From contig JAPPGM010000004.1 of assembly GCA_028874995.1 (NCBI GenBank), positions 3,925 to 67,924 of the forward strand: DNA of 64,000 bases, in the 5' to 3' direction. A program made the translations under genes and the position numbers. The notes under the pieces were generated by a model. That model ran no database searches, had not been told where the DNA came from, and saw nothing but the letters and a program-made list of their open reading frames with translations. Position 1 is the first letter of the stretch, and each line of letters opens with the position of its first letter. This document shows positions 13,411-51,243 of the stretch, piece after piece. This stretch comes from Gemmatimonadota bacterium. GTDB taxonomy: Bacteria; Gemmatimonadota; Gemmatimonadetes; Longimicrobiales; Gaopeijiaceae.

Positions 13411-14045
13411 TCGCGTCGGCGGGCCAACGCGTAGGAGAGGCTCTCCAGCTCCACCAGCATGCTCACGTTGCGTAGCGCGACATCCGCCGGCAGGCGCAGT
13501 TGGACCGGCGCATAGTTCAGCACAGCCTTGATCCCCACCGCCACCACCCGGTCCACAAGCCCCTGCGCCACGGATGCGGGAACCGCAACGATAACGAGGT
13601 CGATCCGGTCCTCGCGCAGCGCTGCTTCAAGCTGGTGCTCACTCCGGATGCGGATCGCGCCGAGTCGGGTGCCGACCTTGCACGGGTCGTTGTCGATCAC
13701 GGTCGTGATGTGGAAGCCGCGCCGGCGGAACGGTTCGTACTCGAAGAGCGCCGTCCCGATCCGTCCCGCACCCAGCAACGCGACCCGCCAGGTCGAGTCG
13801 AGTCCGAGCACGCCCCGGAGCACCTCGGTGAGTTCGGCCACCGAGTACCCCAATCCGCGTTTGCCGTACGAACCCAGGTGGGAGAGATCCTTCCGCACCT
13901 GGGCCGCGGTCGTCCCCCCCTTCTCGGCAAGCGCGCTGCTGGCGACGCTGCTCACGCCAAGACGTCCGAAGTCCTCCAGGAACCGGAGGTAGAGCGAAAG
14001 ACGACGGACCGTCGCATCCGGGATTCGGCTTGTGAATTCGTTCAC
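13407..14045 (-). CDS. rex: Redox-sensing transcriptional repressor Rex
   Basis: Dimeric repressor that leaves DNA when NADH rises relative to NAD+. The N-terminal winged helix (about 1-80) carries IPDATVRRLSLYLRFLE and TAAQVRKDLSHLGSYGKRG. The Rossmann domain has VALLGAGRIGTALF near residue 90, and the C-terminus has the domain-swapped helix region (LVELESLSYALARR). 212 residues is the normal length. The only start in frame before an upstream TAG is the GTG at 14045, which has no clear ribosome site. This GTG lies inside a perfect Rex operator, pointing to autorepression. It overlaps the exonuclease gene by 4 bases. Confidence 0.96.
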   Translation of the reverse strand: MNEFTSRIPDATVRRLSLYLRFLEDFGRLGVSSVASSALAEKGGTTAAQVRKDLSHLGSYGKRGLGYSVAELTEVLRGVLGLDSTWRVALLGAGRIGTALFEYEPFRRRGFHITTVIDNDPCKVGTRLGAIRIRSEHQLEAALREDRIDLVIVAVPASVAQGLVDRVVAVGIKAVLNYAPVQLRLPADVALRNVSMLVELESLSYALARRRE

Positions 14046-14047
14046 AA
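14030..14047. promoter_or_regulatory. Rex operator overlapping the rex start codon
   Basis: TTGTGAATTCGTTCACAA fits the known Rex consensus TTGTGAA-N4-TTCACAA at all 14 fixed positions. The site covers the rex GTG start (bases 14043-14045) and its first five codons (Met-Asn-Glu-Phe-Thr). Binding here would block initiation or early elongation of rex, so autoregulation is likely. A nearby TTGTGTGAAC at 14061 has only one arm and was not counted. Confidence 0.85.
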
Positions 14048-46248: not shown

Positions 46249-48630
46249 TCACACCGGGCATATCTCGTCCAGCTCCGCCATCATGACCAGGACCTCCCTC
46301 GGCTTGGAACCGTCGGGCGGCCCCAGCACCCCCGCGTCGTGCAGCTGGTCGACGATCCTCGCGGCCCGCCCATACCCGATGCGCAGCCGGCGCTGCAGGA
46401 GTGAAGTGGACCCGGCCTTCTGCTGGATGCACGCCTCGGCCGCCTGCCGGAAGAGCGGATCCCAGTCGCCGCGGATGACGCCGTCGCCCGCGTCGCCGTC
46501 ATCCGCCTCCATCGCCTTCACCACTTCCAGGATGTCGCCCTCGTCGCTCTTCACTCGCGCCTTGAGCGCTTCGAGGGTTTCGGCCTGGTCCCGGTACCAC
46601 CCCATCAGCGCCTCCGTCTCGTCGGTGGAGATGAATGCGCCTTGCATGCGCACGGGCTCGCTCTGCCCCGGCGGGAGGAAGAGCATGTCGCCCGACCCGA
46701 GCAGCGAGTCGGCGCCGTTCTGGTCCAGAATGGTTCGAGAATCGGTCTTCGATGCAACACGGAAAGCTATGCGGCACGGGAAGTTGGCCTTGATCAGGCC
46801 AGTAACCACATTAACACTGGGACGCTGGGTCGCGACCAGGAGATGAATGCCGATGGCGCGGGCCTTCTGCGCCAGCTGGGTGAGCGGCTTCTCGACCTCG
46901 GCCTGCACCGTCATCATCAGATCGGCCAGTTCGTCCACGACCACCACGATCCAGGGAAGCGGCCCCTCCTTGTAGCGCCACCGGTCCTCGTCCTCCTCGG
47001 GGCCGTCCGGCGTAGCCAGCTTCATCTCGATCCCCTGCTCGAGGCGCTCGTTGAATTCATGCACCGACCGCACGCCGTTGGCGCTCAGGAGCCCGTAACG
47101 GCGCTCCATCTCCATGACCGCCCACTTCAGGGCCACCGCAGCGTCCCTGGGGTCGGTCACCACCGGGTGCCGCAGGTGGGGAAGGTCGGCGTAGGCGGAG
47201 AGCTCCACCATCTTGGGATCGATGAGCAGCAGGCGGAGGCGGTCGGGCGCGTGCCTGTACACGAGGCTGGTGATGACCGTGTTGAGACAGACGGACTTCC
47301 CCGAGCCGGTGGCGCCGGCGATAAGCGCGTGGGGCATCTTCGTCAGGTCGGAGACGAAGGGCCTGCCGGTCAGATCCTTGCCGAGCGCCAGCGGGAGCAG
47401 GCCGCGCGACCGGGCAAAGAGCGGCGCTTCGAGAATCTCGCGCAGACGCACGATCTCGGTGCGCGGGTTCGGAATCTCGACGCCCACGGCGCCCTTGCCC
47501 GGAATCGGGGCGACGATGCGCACGCTCCTCGCCTTCATTGCCAGCGCCAGGTCCGCGTCCAGGTTCGCGATGCGGTTGACCTTCACGCCCGCCGCCGGAA
47601 CGACCTCGTAGCGCGTCACGGCGGGGCCCGTGGTGCGCCCCGAAATCTCGCCGCTGATGTTGAAGGTCCGGAGCGTCTCGACGAGGACGTCGCCGAGACG
47701 GTCCAGTTCGCGCTCCATGCCCAGCCGGTTGCCGCGCTCCGGGGCGCGCAGGAGTTCCAGCGCGGGGAGGGGGTAGTCGGGGGGCGGGAGGTGGTCCTCG
47801 GGGAGGAGGTCGGGGGTGGAGGGGGCGTCCGTGGTGGGCGGATCGGTATCGGTGGTCACGGTGTCCGGCTCCGGGGTCGTGACGGAAAGGGCGGCCGCCG
47901 GGGTGTCCGGCTGCCCGGGCGCGGACCGGGCCGCGCGGGCCTGCCGCCTGGCCGCCCGCCGCTCCAGGCGCCGGCCACCCCACCCTCGCACTGCCAACCC
48001 GGTCGCGCGAGCGCCCCGCCCCACGCCCCGGAAGAGCTTTCCGGCCACCCGCGCCAGTGGCGCCAGCGGGTTGAAGGTGAAGGCGCTCGACCAGGCGATC
48101 GCCGCAGCCGCGACGACAATGACCCAACCGCCAACCGGGCCCAGGTATTCCAGCAACGGGCTGCCCACGAGCCTGCCAAGGAAACCGCTCGGCGTATCTA
48201 CCCTCCCAAGCAGGAAGGCCGATACCGGAAGAAGTATCAACAGACCCCCGGCCACGATCCAGAGGCTCTTCCGGCGGGCGGACGCCCACCACCCTCCTAC
48301 CGAGGCGGCGGCGGCCAGCAAGCCCAACGGAACTGTGGCGACTCCGACCCCCAGTGCGCGCACGAGACGGGCATTCATGGCTTCGCCGACGGTCCCCACC
48401 GGGTTGCCCTCCGGAAAGAAGTCCACCGCCCCCGGCCCCAGCCACTGCAACGGAAACAGCGCCGCGGCCACCAGAAAGGCGAGCACGGCGGTCACGGCGG
48501 CCAGCGCCCGCCGCTGCCGCATCCGCTGCTCCGCCGACTTCTTCGGCCCACGCGGGCGCTTCTTCGGCGCGGCGCGCCTCCGGGCCGCCGGCCTCTTCGC
48601 CACCCTTCGTCCGACGCGCGGGGCTGCCAC
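46249..48630 (-). CDS. ftsK: DNA translocase FtsK
   Basis: Septal DNA pump that clears chromosome ends before division. 793 residues: a basic N-terminus, four hydrophobic segments in the first 185, a Pro/Thr/Asp-rich linker (about 225-290), then the RecA-like motor with LIAGATGSGKSVCLNTVI (Walker A), LLLIDPKMVELSAYADLPHL, and WIVVVVDELADLMM (Walker B). LATQRPSVNVVTGLIKANFP and DQNGADSLLGSGDMLFLPPG follow. The C-terminal gamma winged helix is present (TSLLQRRLRIGYGRAARIVD). The start is a GTG at 48630, seven bases after comB. The gap to lolA holds the promoter region of the next unit. Confidence 0.96.
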   Translation of the reverse strand: MAAPRVGRRVAKRPAARRRAAPKKRPRGPKKSAEQRMRQRRALAAVTAVLAFLVAAALFPLQWLGPGAVDFFPEGNPVGTVGEAMNARLVRALGVGVATVPLGLLAAAASVGGWWASARRKSLWIVAGGLLILLPVSAFLLGRVDTPSGFLGRLVGSPLLEYLGPVGGWVIVVAAAAIAWSSAFTFNPLAPLARVAGKLFRGVGRGARATGLAVRGWGGRRLERRAARRQARAARSAPGQPDTPAAALSVTTPEPDTVTTDTDPPTTDAPSTPDLLPEDHLPPPDYPLPALELLRAPERGNRLGMERELDRLGDVLVETLRTFNISGEISGRTTGPAVTRYEVVPAAGVKVNRIANLDADLALAMKARSVRIVAPIPGKGAVGVEIPNPRTEIVRLREILEAPLFARSRGLLPLALGKDLTGRPFVSDLTKMPHALIAGATGSGKSVCLNTVITSLVYRHAPDRLRLLLIDPKMVELSAYADLPHLRHPVVTDPRDAAVALKWAVMEMERRYGLLSANGVRSVHEFNERLEQGIEMKLATPDGPEEDEDRWRYKEGPLPWIVVVVDELADLMMTVQAEVEKPLTQLAQKARAIGIHLLVATQRPSVNVVTGLIKANFPCRIAFRVASKTDSRTILDQNGADSLLGSGDMLFLPPGQSEPVRMQGAFISTDETEALMGWYRDQAETLEALKARVKSDEGDILEVVKAMEADDGDAGDGVIRGDWDPLFRQAAEACIQQKAGSTSLLQRRLRIGYGRAARIVDQLHDAGVLGPPDGSKPREVLVMMAELDEICPV

Positions 48631-48637
48631 GGACTGC

Positions 48638-49366
48638 CTACGCTCTCGGGGCCGTGATCACGCCATCTTGCATCATGGGTACAATCTGGTGCCTGTCGAT
48701 CCTTGCGCACAGGGCCAGGTCGGCACCCAACCCCACCTCGACCAGCGCCTGACCGGCGGCCGTTCCCGCCAGCATGTCGGCGGACACACCGTGCACGCCG
48801 GCCAGATCGCGGACCGCCAGCGCGCCGTCGGCGAGCGTGACCGGGTCGGCCGCACGTTCAAGCAAGGCACGCACGATGTGTCCCGCGCACACCGCGTCGT
48901 CGAGCGAGAACCGGCCTTCCTTGCCCGCGCACACGATCGCCACCGCGTCGTCGTCGCGCACCGCGTCGGCCACCGCGCTCCGGTTGAAGAACGAGGCCGC
49001 GAGGACGCGGTCGGCGTGGCGGGCGGCCGCGAAGGCGCGCGTCCCGTTGGTGGTGGTCATCACGAGGCGCCGCCCGCCCACCGCGGCCGCCGTGAACTCG
49101 GTGGGGGAGTTGCCCAGATCGAAACCGTCGATCCGGAGCCCGCCGCGCTCGCCGCACAGCAGGGCGCGGTCCCCGTGGCCGTTCAGCCTGGCCTGCAGCA
49201 CGGCCGCCTCCTCCAACGAGACGGCGGGGTGGACGGCCCGCGCCCCGTTCGCGATCGCCTCGACAATGCACGAGGTGGCGCGCACCACATCGATGACCAC
49301 CGCGGTCGCGCCGGCCAGATCGCCCGCGCGCACCTCTTCGGGGGTGCAGTAGACATCGACCCTCAT
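48638..49366 (-). CDS. comB: 2-phosphosulfolactate phosphatase
   Basis: Hydrolyses 2-phosphosulfolactate to sulfolactate, a step first described in coenzyme M synthesis and also found in sulfolactate-making bacteria. 242 residues: VDVYCTPEEV at the start, AVVIDVVRATSCIVEAIANG, LLCGERGGLRIDGFDLGNSP, LVMTTTNGTRAF and VAIVCAGKEGRFSLDDAVCAG are family blocks. The ATG at 49366 has a GAGG site. The track start at 49378 is a TTG overlapping accC. No other coenzyme M or sulfolactate gene is in the window. A perfect Rex operator lies 25 bases upstream, inside the end of accC. Confidence 0.92.
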   Translation of the reverse strand: MRVDVYCTPEEVRAGDLAGATAVVIDVVRATSCIVEAIANGARAVHPAVSLEEAAVLQARLNGHGDRALLCGERGGLRIDGFDLGNSPTEFTAAAVGGRRLVMTTTNGTRAFAAARHADRVLAASFFNRSAVADAVRDDDAVAIVCAGKEGRFSLDDAVCAGHIVRALLERAADPVTLADGALAVRDLAGVHGVSADMLAGTAAGQALVEVGLGADLALCARIDRHQIVPMMQDGVITAPRA

Positions 49367-49374
49367 GCGCCGCC

Positions 49375-50727
49375 TCAAGACTCCGGGCCGCTTGTGAAAC
49401 GTTTCACAAACCCCGTGTCGACGTCGCCGGCCCGGAAGTGGTCGTCGCGCGTGATCCGCGACAGGTAGCCGATCGTGGTCGGGATCCCCTCGACAACGAA
49501 GGAATCCAACGCCTCGCGGCCACGCACCACCGCCTCCGCCCGCGTGTTGCCCCAGACGATCAGCTTGGCGATCAGCGAGTCGTAGTACGGCGGGACCCTG
49601 TACCCGGAGTACACGTGCGTATCCACGCGCACCCCGGGCCCACCCGGCTGGTGAAAGGTGGTGATCGTCCCCGGGGCGGGAGCGAAGCCGCGCGACGGGT
49701 CCTCGGCGTTGATGCGGAACTCGATGGCGTGACCGCGCGGCTCCTGCGAATCCGGCGGGAAGGACAGCGGCTCGCCCGCCGCGACCCGGATCTGCTCCTT
49801 GACCAGGTCCAGACCGGTCACCACCTCGGTCACCGTGTGCTCGACCTGGATGCGCGTGTTCATCTCGATGAAGTAGAACTCGCCCGAGGCGTCGAGCAGG
49901 AACTCCACCGTGCCGGAGCCGACGTAGTCGATGGCGCGCGCCGCCGCGACCGCCGCCTCGCCCATCTTCTCGCGAAGCTCGGGGGACAGCCCGGGTGACG
50001 GCGCCTCCTCGACCAGCTTCTGGTGGCGGCGCTGGATCGAGCAGTCGCGTTCACCCACATGGACCACCCTCCCATGCTGATCGCCGAACACCTGGAACTC
50101 GATGTGGCGGGGACGGATCAGACACCGTTCCAGGTACACGCCGGGCTCGCCGAAGGCCGCCCCCGCCTCGGTGCGGGCCGCCGTGAAGTGCCGCCTGAAC
50201 GACCCCTCGTCCGCCGCGATGCGCATTCCCTTCCCCCCGCCCCCGGCGGCCGCCTTGATCATGACCGGGAAACCGATCTCGCGGGCCCGCACCAGCGCCT
50301 CCGCCTCGTCGTCCACGATCCCGTCCGAACCGGGCACCACCGGGACCCCGGCCGCATGCATCGTCTCCCGAGCCACCGCCTTGTCGCCCATGGCGCGGAT
50401 CTGGTCCGGCGTCGGCCCCACGAAGACCAGGTCCGAGCGCTGGCAGATCTCCGCGAACTCCGCGTTCTCGGCCAGGAAGCCGTACCCGGGATGCACCGCC
50501 TCCGCCCCCGTGATCTCGGCGGCCGCCACGATTCGCGTCACCTTCAGGTACGAGTCCGCCGCCTTTGCCGCACCGATGCACACGGCCTCGTCGGCGAAGC
50601 GCACATGCAGCGATTCCTGGTCGGCCTCCGAATACACGGCCACCGTGGCGATGTCCAGTTCCCGGCAGGCGCGCACGATCCTGAGCGCGATCTCGCCCCG
50701 GTTCGCGATCAGGAGTTTGGAGAACAC
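49375..50727 (-). CDS. accC: Acetyl-CoA carboxylase, biotin carboxylase subunit
   Basis: Carboxylates the biotin on AccB using ATP and bicarbonate, the first half of malonyl-CoA synthesis. 450 residues: [20 protein letters not shown] at the start, [34 protein letters not shown] (the Gly-rich ATP loop), [35 protein letters not shown] and [18 protein letters not shown]. The start is a GTG at 50727 without a clear ribosome site. A GTAAGAC/GTCTTAC hairpin lies in the 21-base gap after accB. The last codons contain a perfect Rex operator. The carboxyltransferase genes accA and accD are not in the window. Confidence 0.96.
49392..49409. promoter_or_regulatory. Perfect Rex operator in the 3' end of accC, just upstream of comB
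   Basis: TTGTGAAACGTTTCACAA is a complete 18-base palindrome matching TTGTGAA-N4-TTCACAA at every fixed base. It encodes part of the AccC C-terminus (Val-Lys-Arg-Phe-Thr) and ends 25 bases before the comB ATG. A rex gene and its own perfect operator are in the same window. No clear promoter hexamers overlap it, so it may work as a roadblock or govern an unrecognised promoter for comB and ftsK. Confidence 0.75.
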
Positions 50728-50734
50728 AGGTCTG

Positions 50735-50752
50735 GTAAGACGGCTGTCTTAC
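50735..50752. promoter_or_regulatory. Perfect inverted repeat between accB and accC
   Basis: GTAAGAC-GGCT-GTCTTAC, seven paired bases with a four-base loop, spans the accB TAA stop and most of the 21-base gap before the accC GTG. No T-run follows, so it is not a terminator. The accC start lacks a recognisable Shine-Dalgarno sequence, so the hairpin may influence accC translation or mRNA processing. Confidence 0.5.
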
Positions 50753-51243
50753 GCGGGATCGACGCGGAAGAGCACCTGTCCGAAGTCGACCGGTTCCGCG
50801 TTGTCGACGCAGATCTCGACGATCCGGCCGGCGGCTTCGCACTCGAGCTCGTTCATGAGCTTCATCGCCTCGATGACGCAGAGCACGTCGCCCGCCGCCA
50901 CCGTGCTCCCCACCTGCACGTACGGGGCCGCCTCGGGCGAGGGCGCCCGGTAGAAGGTCCCCACCATGGGCGAGGTGATCTCCACCAGGTCGGCGGAGGC
51001 GGTTTCGGGCGACGCGGGCGGTGGGGGCGCCGCCGGTTCCCGCTCGGGAGGCGGCGCGGAGGCGGCGACGACCGGCGCGGCATCCGGCACCGCGCTGTTC
51101 GCCGGCGACACCGAGGCGACGGCATTGCCGCCGGCAGACTTGGACAACCGGATCCGCGTGCCCCCCCGCCTGATCTCCAGGTTGTCGAGGGAGGACTCGT
51201 CCAGCATCCGGATCAGGGACTCCACGAACTCGATATCGATCAT
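50749..51243 (-). CDS. accB: Acetyl-CoA carboxylase biotin carboxyl carrier protein
   Basis: Carries the carboxylated biotin in fatty acid synthesis. 164 residues from the ATG at 51243, which overlaps the efp stop (ATGA). The N-terminus FVESLIRMLDESSLDNLEIR fits AccB. The middle is a flexible Ala/Pro-rich linker (about 45-85). The C-terminal lipoyl/biotinyl domain shows EITSPMVGTFYRAPSPEAAP and VLCVIEAMKLMNELECEAAG, where the Lys of EAMKLMN is biotinylated. The track ORF to 51750 is a frame ghost of efp. efp-accB-accC is a common order. Confidence 0.96.
   Translation of the reverse strand: MIDIEFVESLIRMLDESSLDNLEIRRGGTRIRLSKSAGGNAVASVSPANSAVPDAAPVVAASAPPPEREPAAPPPPASPETASADLVEITSPMVGTFYRAPSPEAAPYVQVGSTVAAGDVLCVIEAMKLMNELECEAAGRIVEICVDNAEPVDFGQVLFRVDPA

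Follow-up and report, generated by a model that had tools for sequence, protein, structure and literature searches.

The locus studied here raises the question of why a perfect Rex-type palindrome should lie within the last codons of a biotin carboxylase gene, and whether it governs the genes that follow. In the 64-kb window (the whole stretch of 64,000 nucleotides that was analysed), the palindrome, TTGTGAAACGTTTCACAA, occupies positions 49392-49409, assigned to neither strand, in the 3′ end of accC (biotin carboxylase; 49375-50727, minus strand; delimited by ORF and gene calls, with the AccC tails aligned among relatives). The gene belongs to the minus-strand string accB-accC-comB-ftsK, in which accB (50749-51243) is upstream of accC in a presumed common transcription unit, comB (48638-49366), of the 2-phosphosulfolactate phosphatase family (PF04029, E 3.4e-70), starts 8 nt past the accC stop codon, and an ftsK-type DNA translocase gene (46249-48603; ORF and gene calls) is downstream of comB; accB and ftsK were named by protein reading. 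The window scan bore out the earlier note on this DNA in its description of the element: it is a full 18-base palindrome matching TTGTGAA-N4-TTCACAA at 14 of 14 fixed positions, and the distance from its end to the comB ATG (49366) is 25 nt. From base composition (68.6% GC), a perfect match to the motif is expected ~8e-6 times per window, and even when ≤3 mismatches are allowed the window holds 2 matches vs 0.30 expected from dinucleotide shuffles. The palindrome encodes V-K-R-F-T of the AccC C-terminus (peptide context F-V-K-R-F-T-S) and needs the rare codons TTT, AAA, CGT, and ACA, and the probability of the palindromic spelling of F-V-K-R-F-T-S, given the codon usage of 20 window genes, is 3.4e-6. 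The accC/comB palindrome is predicted, with high confidence, to be a Rex-type operator.

The same note had stated that the genome carries rex together with a site of this type, and this is confirmed. The sole Rex gene found in the genome (13407-14045, minus strand) encodes a protein with an N-terminal winged helix and a Rossmann NAD(H) domain (PF06971 and PF02629, both above cut-off), the nearest solved structures being those of Rex (5e-42), and a perfect Rex-type operator, TTGTGAATTCGTTCACAA (14030-14047, assigned to neither strand), lies over the rex GTG start codon as a putative autoregulation site. That GTG is the only usable start codon of rex, with an in-frame stop just upstream. A site covers the rex start codon at the same position in nine genus genomes, and where Rex regulates its own gene in this genus, the initiation of translation or early elongation may be affected as well. 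The nuo and atp operons are targets expected of Rex, and the study genome (G000) has one-mismatch sites ahead of both nuoA and the atp operon. Each of the five outgroups examined (G023, G024, G025, G027, and G033) has a single perfect site upstream of rex, four of these outgroups retain, ahead of the atp operon, a site with one mismatch, and G023 has a weaker site upstream of nuoA.

The only genus member without rex, G010, contains no perfect site and few weak matches, none of them at atp or nuo. With 2.8 Mb it is the smallest genus genome sampled and represents a natural case of rex loss. The genome with the most divergent Rex (G008; 73%) likewise lacks perfect sites; apart from one weak intragenic match, the atp and nuo sites are all that it retains. 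The sites are therefore present with rex and lost without it, a comparison that rests on one rex-less genus genome, G010, which is possibly incomplete.

Genome-wide (4.52 Mb, 191 contigs), a pattern search gave 13 perfect sites, 14 with one mismatch, and 4 with two, whereas the reversed pattern, used as a control in the same genome, gave 2 matches at ≤2 mismatches and none perfect; over 40 genomes (the study genome and 39 relatives) the reversed pattern had no perfect match at all. The counts drop as more mismatches are allowed, which is the opposite of what chance would produce, and the claim that the accC match is unlikely to be accidental holds all the more in view of the 13 perfect copies. 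The 22 genus relatives have 0 to 17 perfect sites, with a reversed control of 0 in each, and the 17 more distant genomes have 0 or 1. The highest number was found in G021, a complete chromosome (matching OX639991.1) with 17 perfect sites and 36 sites in all, the reversed control again being 0. Since Rex sites outside the genus are few (rex, atp, and sometimes nuo), the distribution suggests that the Rex regulon has grown in this Gemmatimonadota genus, and has done so largely within coding sequence.

The placement of the sites bears on the idea of an operator inside a coding sequence, which the earlier note put forward. The accC site does lie within a gene, but in this it is not unusual: with genes called by a simple finder that had learned the codon usage of the window, the 27 sites with ≤1 mismatch comprise 12 deep in genes and 15 others, of which 2 are close to a stop codon, 1 is close to a start, 4 overlap a gene edge, and 8 are intergenic and upstream of genes. 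G021 is similar (13 of 30 sites deep in genes) and has counterparts of 20 of the 27 sites. Orthologous intragenic sites recur in carB, GlnRS, lutC, an FAD/FMN oxidoreductase, an ABC ATPase, an aminotransferase, sarcosine oxidase alpha, and others, some of these site-bearing genes having been named by protein reading rather than by domain search. Individual sites have arrangements of their own. In five genus genomes (loci L098, L117, L124, L134, and L151) the palindrome coincides with the stop codon (TTG TGA) that ends a TypA-like GTPase gene, which is followed in at least four of the five by a ThyX-like gene, and a like arrangement is seen at the end of a pyruvate-kinase-like gene (L108 and L143). 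Two Rex-type sites 65 bp apart (L001:1436-1453 and 1501-1518) lie upstream of a GH3 glycoside hydrolase gene, and G021 has a counterpart of the perfect site of this pair only.

The DNA of the sites changes little between species. Between the study genome and G021, the arms differ by 0.29 changes per 14 bases vs 2.09 in the flanks, and the N4 spacer changes at the background rate (0.67 vs 0.66). In same-amino-acid codons of these two genomes, synonymous third positions are changed in 0 of 47 cases in the arms vs 515 of 1606 in the flanks (p=2e-8), a test that is partly ascertained in that both members of each pair carry a site. Two added checks are free of this bias. In the first, with sites chosen in the study genome alone, 14 of 25 show no arm change in G021 vs 17% expected (p=1e-5). 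In the second, for which orthologs were collected whether or not they held a site, the carB palindrome persists with 0-2 mismatches in 13 of 16 genus genomes but has 7 mismatches in G010 and 5-9 in the outgroups, and the GlnRS palindrome persists with 0-1 mismatches in 11 of 15 genus genomes but has 7 mismatches in G010; both are gone in G008 and in G010, and G010 has also lost the sites at nuo and atp. The earlier note had regarded loss of the palindrome in close relatives that keep the peptide as evidence against an operator. At accC, the relatives G021 and G003 have lost the palindrome and also carry an altered peptide (tails FVERFAG and FVERFMN), so that the comparison does not decide the matter at this gene. 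At carB, G014 and G007 have the CERIHK peptide intact and two mismatches in the palindrome; hence the peptide there does not force the palindrome. A protein-level explanation by itself is ruled out by the codon usage and by these peptide-preserving losses. On this sequence evidence, the intragenic sites of the genus are shown to be under constraint at the level of the DNA.

The accC site itself has a more restricted history. Among the 17 genus genomes with an accC-comB junction it is present in four, perfect in the study genome and one mismatch away from the motif in each of G012, G018, and G014, and the other 13 have at least 5 mismatches. All four carriers belong to one six-genome clade, of which the remaining members, G021 and G003, are without the site (5 mismatches), and three changes are needed on the tree. 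The three changes and the absence from G021 and G003 point to the accC site as a recent or unstable member of the regulon, probably younger and less stable than the others. Insertion of an 18-bp element is ruled out at accC by the gap-free alignment of the relatives. In its ancestral form, FVxRF, the AccC tail was already near the palindrome (5 mismatches), which may explain where the site arose. This history, with the site in only 4 of 17 accC-comB genomes and absent from two of the six closest, weakens the proposal of the earlier note that comB specifically is under NADH control, which stays plausible but is not widely conserved. The note's reading that sulfolactate production is so controlled is weak, because ComA (PF02679) was not found in the genome, which is 96.7% complete and in which ComB (PF04029) is present, and its suggested extension of the control to ftsK is read from gene order. 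As to comB itself, the gene was not detected in 6 of 22 genus genomes (G005, G007, G010, G011, G020, and G022).

Rex represses its targets until the NADH/NAD+ ratio rises, NADH weakening its binding to DNA (PMC8457756, PMC5355995). Taking the above observations together, we consider it likely that the palindrome is a genuine Rex operator in a regulon expanded within the genus, many operators of which are intragenic, with the accC operator acting mainly as a roadblock to comB-ftsK. Rex with bound NAD+ would bind the accC palindrome as a dimer and, as a roadblock, would cut transcription running from accC into comB and ftsK; on a rise in NADH/NAD+, Rex would be released and transcription would pass into comB-ftsK. 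We infer each of these steps, namely Rex binding in vitro, release by NADH, the roadblock, and an effect on comB or ftsK. The roadblock is preferred because the site is inside the accB-accC-comB-ftsK string with no promoter visible nearby; no terminator-like sequence was seen at the accC site. As the specific action of this site, roadblocking of comB-ftsK is put forward tentatively, at close to but below an even chance. Precedents for a roadblock in Bacillus subtilis are CcpA (PMC3463425) and CodY (as cited in PMC4324032), and intragenic Zur boxes of the same organism repress in cis (PMC4324032).

The alternative that survives best, though we regard it as unlikely, is that Rex binds the accC site without regulatory consequence, the site being a tolerated decoy gained and lost by point mutation under a genus Rex that prefers the exact sequence. 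The repeated gain or loss of the site among close relatives and the closeness of the ancestral FVxRF tail to the palindrome speak for such a decoy. Against it, each of the four genomes that have the site retains the rare codons AAA and CGT, and the intragenic sites taken together show strong constraint on their DNA. Some of the intragenic sites may nevertheless bind Rex without regulatory effect. It is also improbable, to a similar degree, that comB has a promoter of its own inside accC with the palindrome as its Rex operator, so that initiation rather than elongation would be blocked. An operator close to a start site could well stand 25 nt from the ATG of comB, and several genus sites are 15-150 nt upstream of genes; set against this, accC and comB are separated by only the 8 nt noted above, within a co-directional gene string, and the scan of positions 49300-49700 revealed no promoter-like sequence of the sigma-70 type, although promoters of this phylum may not fit that consensus. 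The classical model of an operator at a promoter is thus unsupported at the accC site in the sigma-70 scan.

Ownership of the motif by another regulator, either of the CRP/FNR type (TGTGA-N6-TCACA) or a chromosome-organising protein, is very improbable. The accC site does match the CRP core perfectly, and the many intragenic sites resemble those of nucleoid proteins, but no CRP-type HTH above cut-off exists in the genome (PF13545 gave a single sub-cut-off match), most perfect CRP-core matches share with Rex sites the outer T/A and inner AA..TT as well, and the sites vanish along with rex in G010. Ownership by CRP/FNR is rejected on the missing HTH above cut-off and these extra fixed Rex bases, and a LacI/CcpA-type operator, with its fixed central CG, on the variable site centre. 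A parS-like or macrodomain element is rejected on the spread of the sites along the G021 chromosome (KS p=0.055), and the palindrome also differs in sequence from parS. Just as improbable are readings of the site as plain coding sequence or as a hairpin of the accC-comB mRNA, with a stem of 7 bp and a loop of 4 nt, that would influence translation or the stability of the message. Such a perfect inverted repeat could form a hairpin in RNA, and the site does encode a normal AccC C-terminus, but the arms have a fixed sequence, with G3, G5, and A6 present in 114 of 114 orientations, the one-mismatch sites are uncompensated, the motif is also intergenic, and the palindromic spelling has the very low probability given above.

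Returning to the Rex operator within an expanded regulon, a wider proposal can be made with caution, and we rate it as somewhat doubtful: Rex may serve in this genus as an elongation-level regulator, with operators in the codons of carB, GlnRS, lutC, the ABC-transporter ATPase, the aminotransferase, the FAD/FMN oxidoreductase, and accC-comB, so that NAD+/NADH would throttle transcription within genes and synonymous sites would be under operator selection. If this mechanism is true, a redox repressor has been rewired to work within genes, the genus offers a clear example of a DNA-binding protein dictating which codons are used, and the series of natural gains and losses, in which accC-comB is young, would bear on how operators originate inside proteins. 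Intragenic regulator sites are usually discarded as noise in genome-wide scans. Those described here account for much of a well-known regulon; they stay at the same positions from species to species and decay in the genome that has lost the regulator. Gemmatimonadota have few cultured members, and regulatory facts on the phylum are scarce for that reason. The genus-wide conserved intragenic Rex sites, beyond the accC-comB site, are the finding worth pursuing. In the literature searched, with subscription papers mostly outside its coverage, neither conserved Rex sites within genes nor a pairing of Rex with comB came to light, and accC-comB, carB, GlnRS, lutC, and the FAD/FMN oxidoreductase did not appear as Rex targets.

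Known Rex regulons, most closely those of Gram-positive bacteria, share much with the present one. The operator of Staphylococcus aureus is TTGTGAAW4TTCACAA (PMC2883068), the same sequence as here, and the protein family, the autoregulation of rex, and the atp and nuo sites are shared with regulons including that of Streptomyces avermitilis (PMC5355995). The operators described in the Gram-positive regulons are in promoter regions, whereas nearly half of those in this genome are deep in coding sequence, at conserved positions. The CcpA and CodY roadblocks (PMC3463425 and, for CodY, as cited in PMC4324032) involve operators inside transcribed genes that block elongation; the location would be alike here, judging by gene order and the lack of a visible promoter, and the two proteins differ from Rex in family and in signal. 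The Zur boxes of Bacillus subtilis (PMC4324032) are comparable in that a metabolic regulator has many recognisable intragenic boxes of unclear role. Those boxes were found by ChIP, whereas the Rex sites of this genus are deduced from their sequence, and their constraint is shown by conservation across species.
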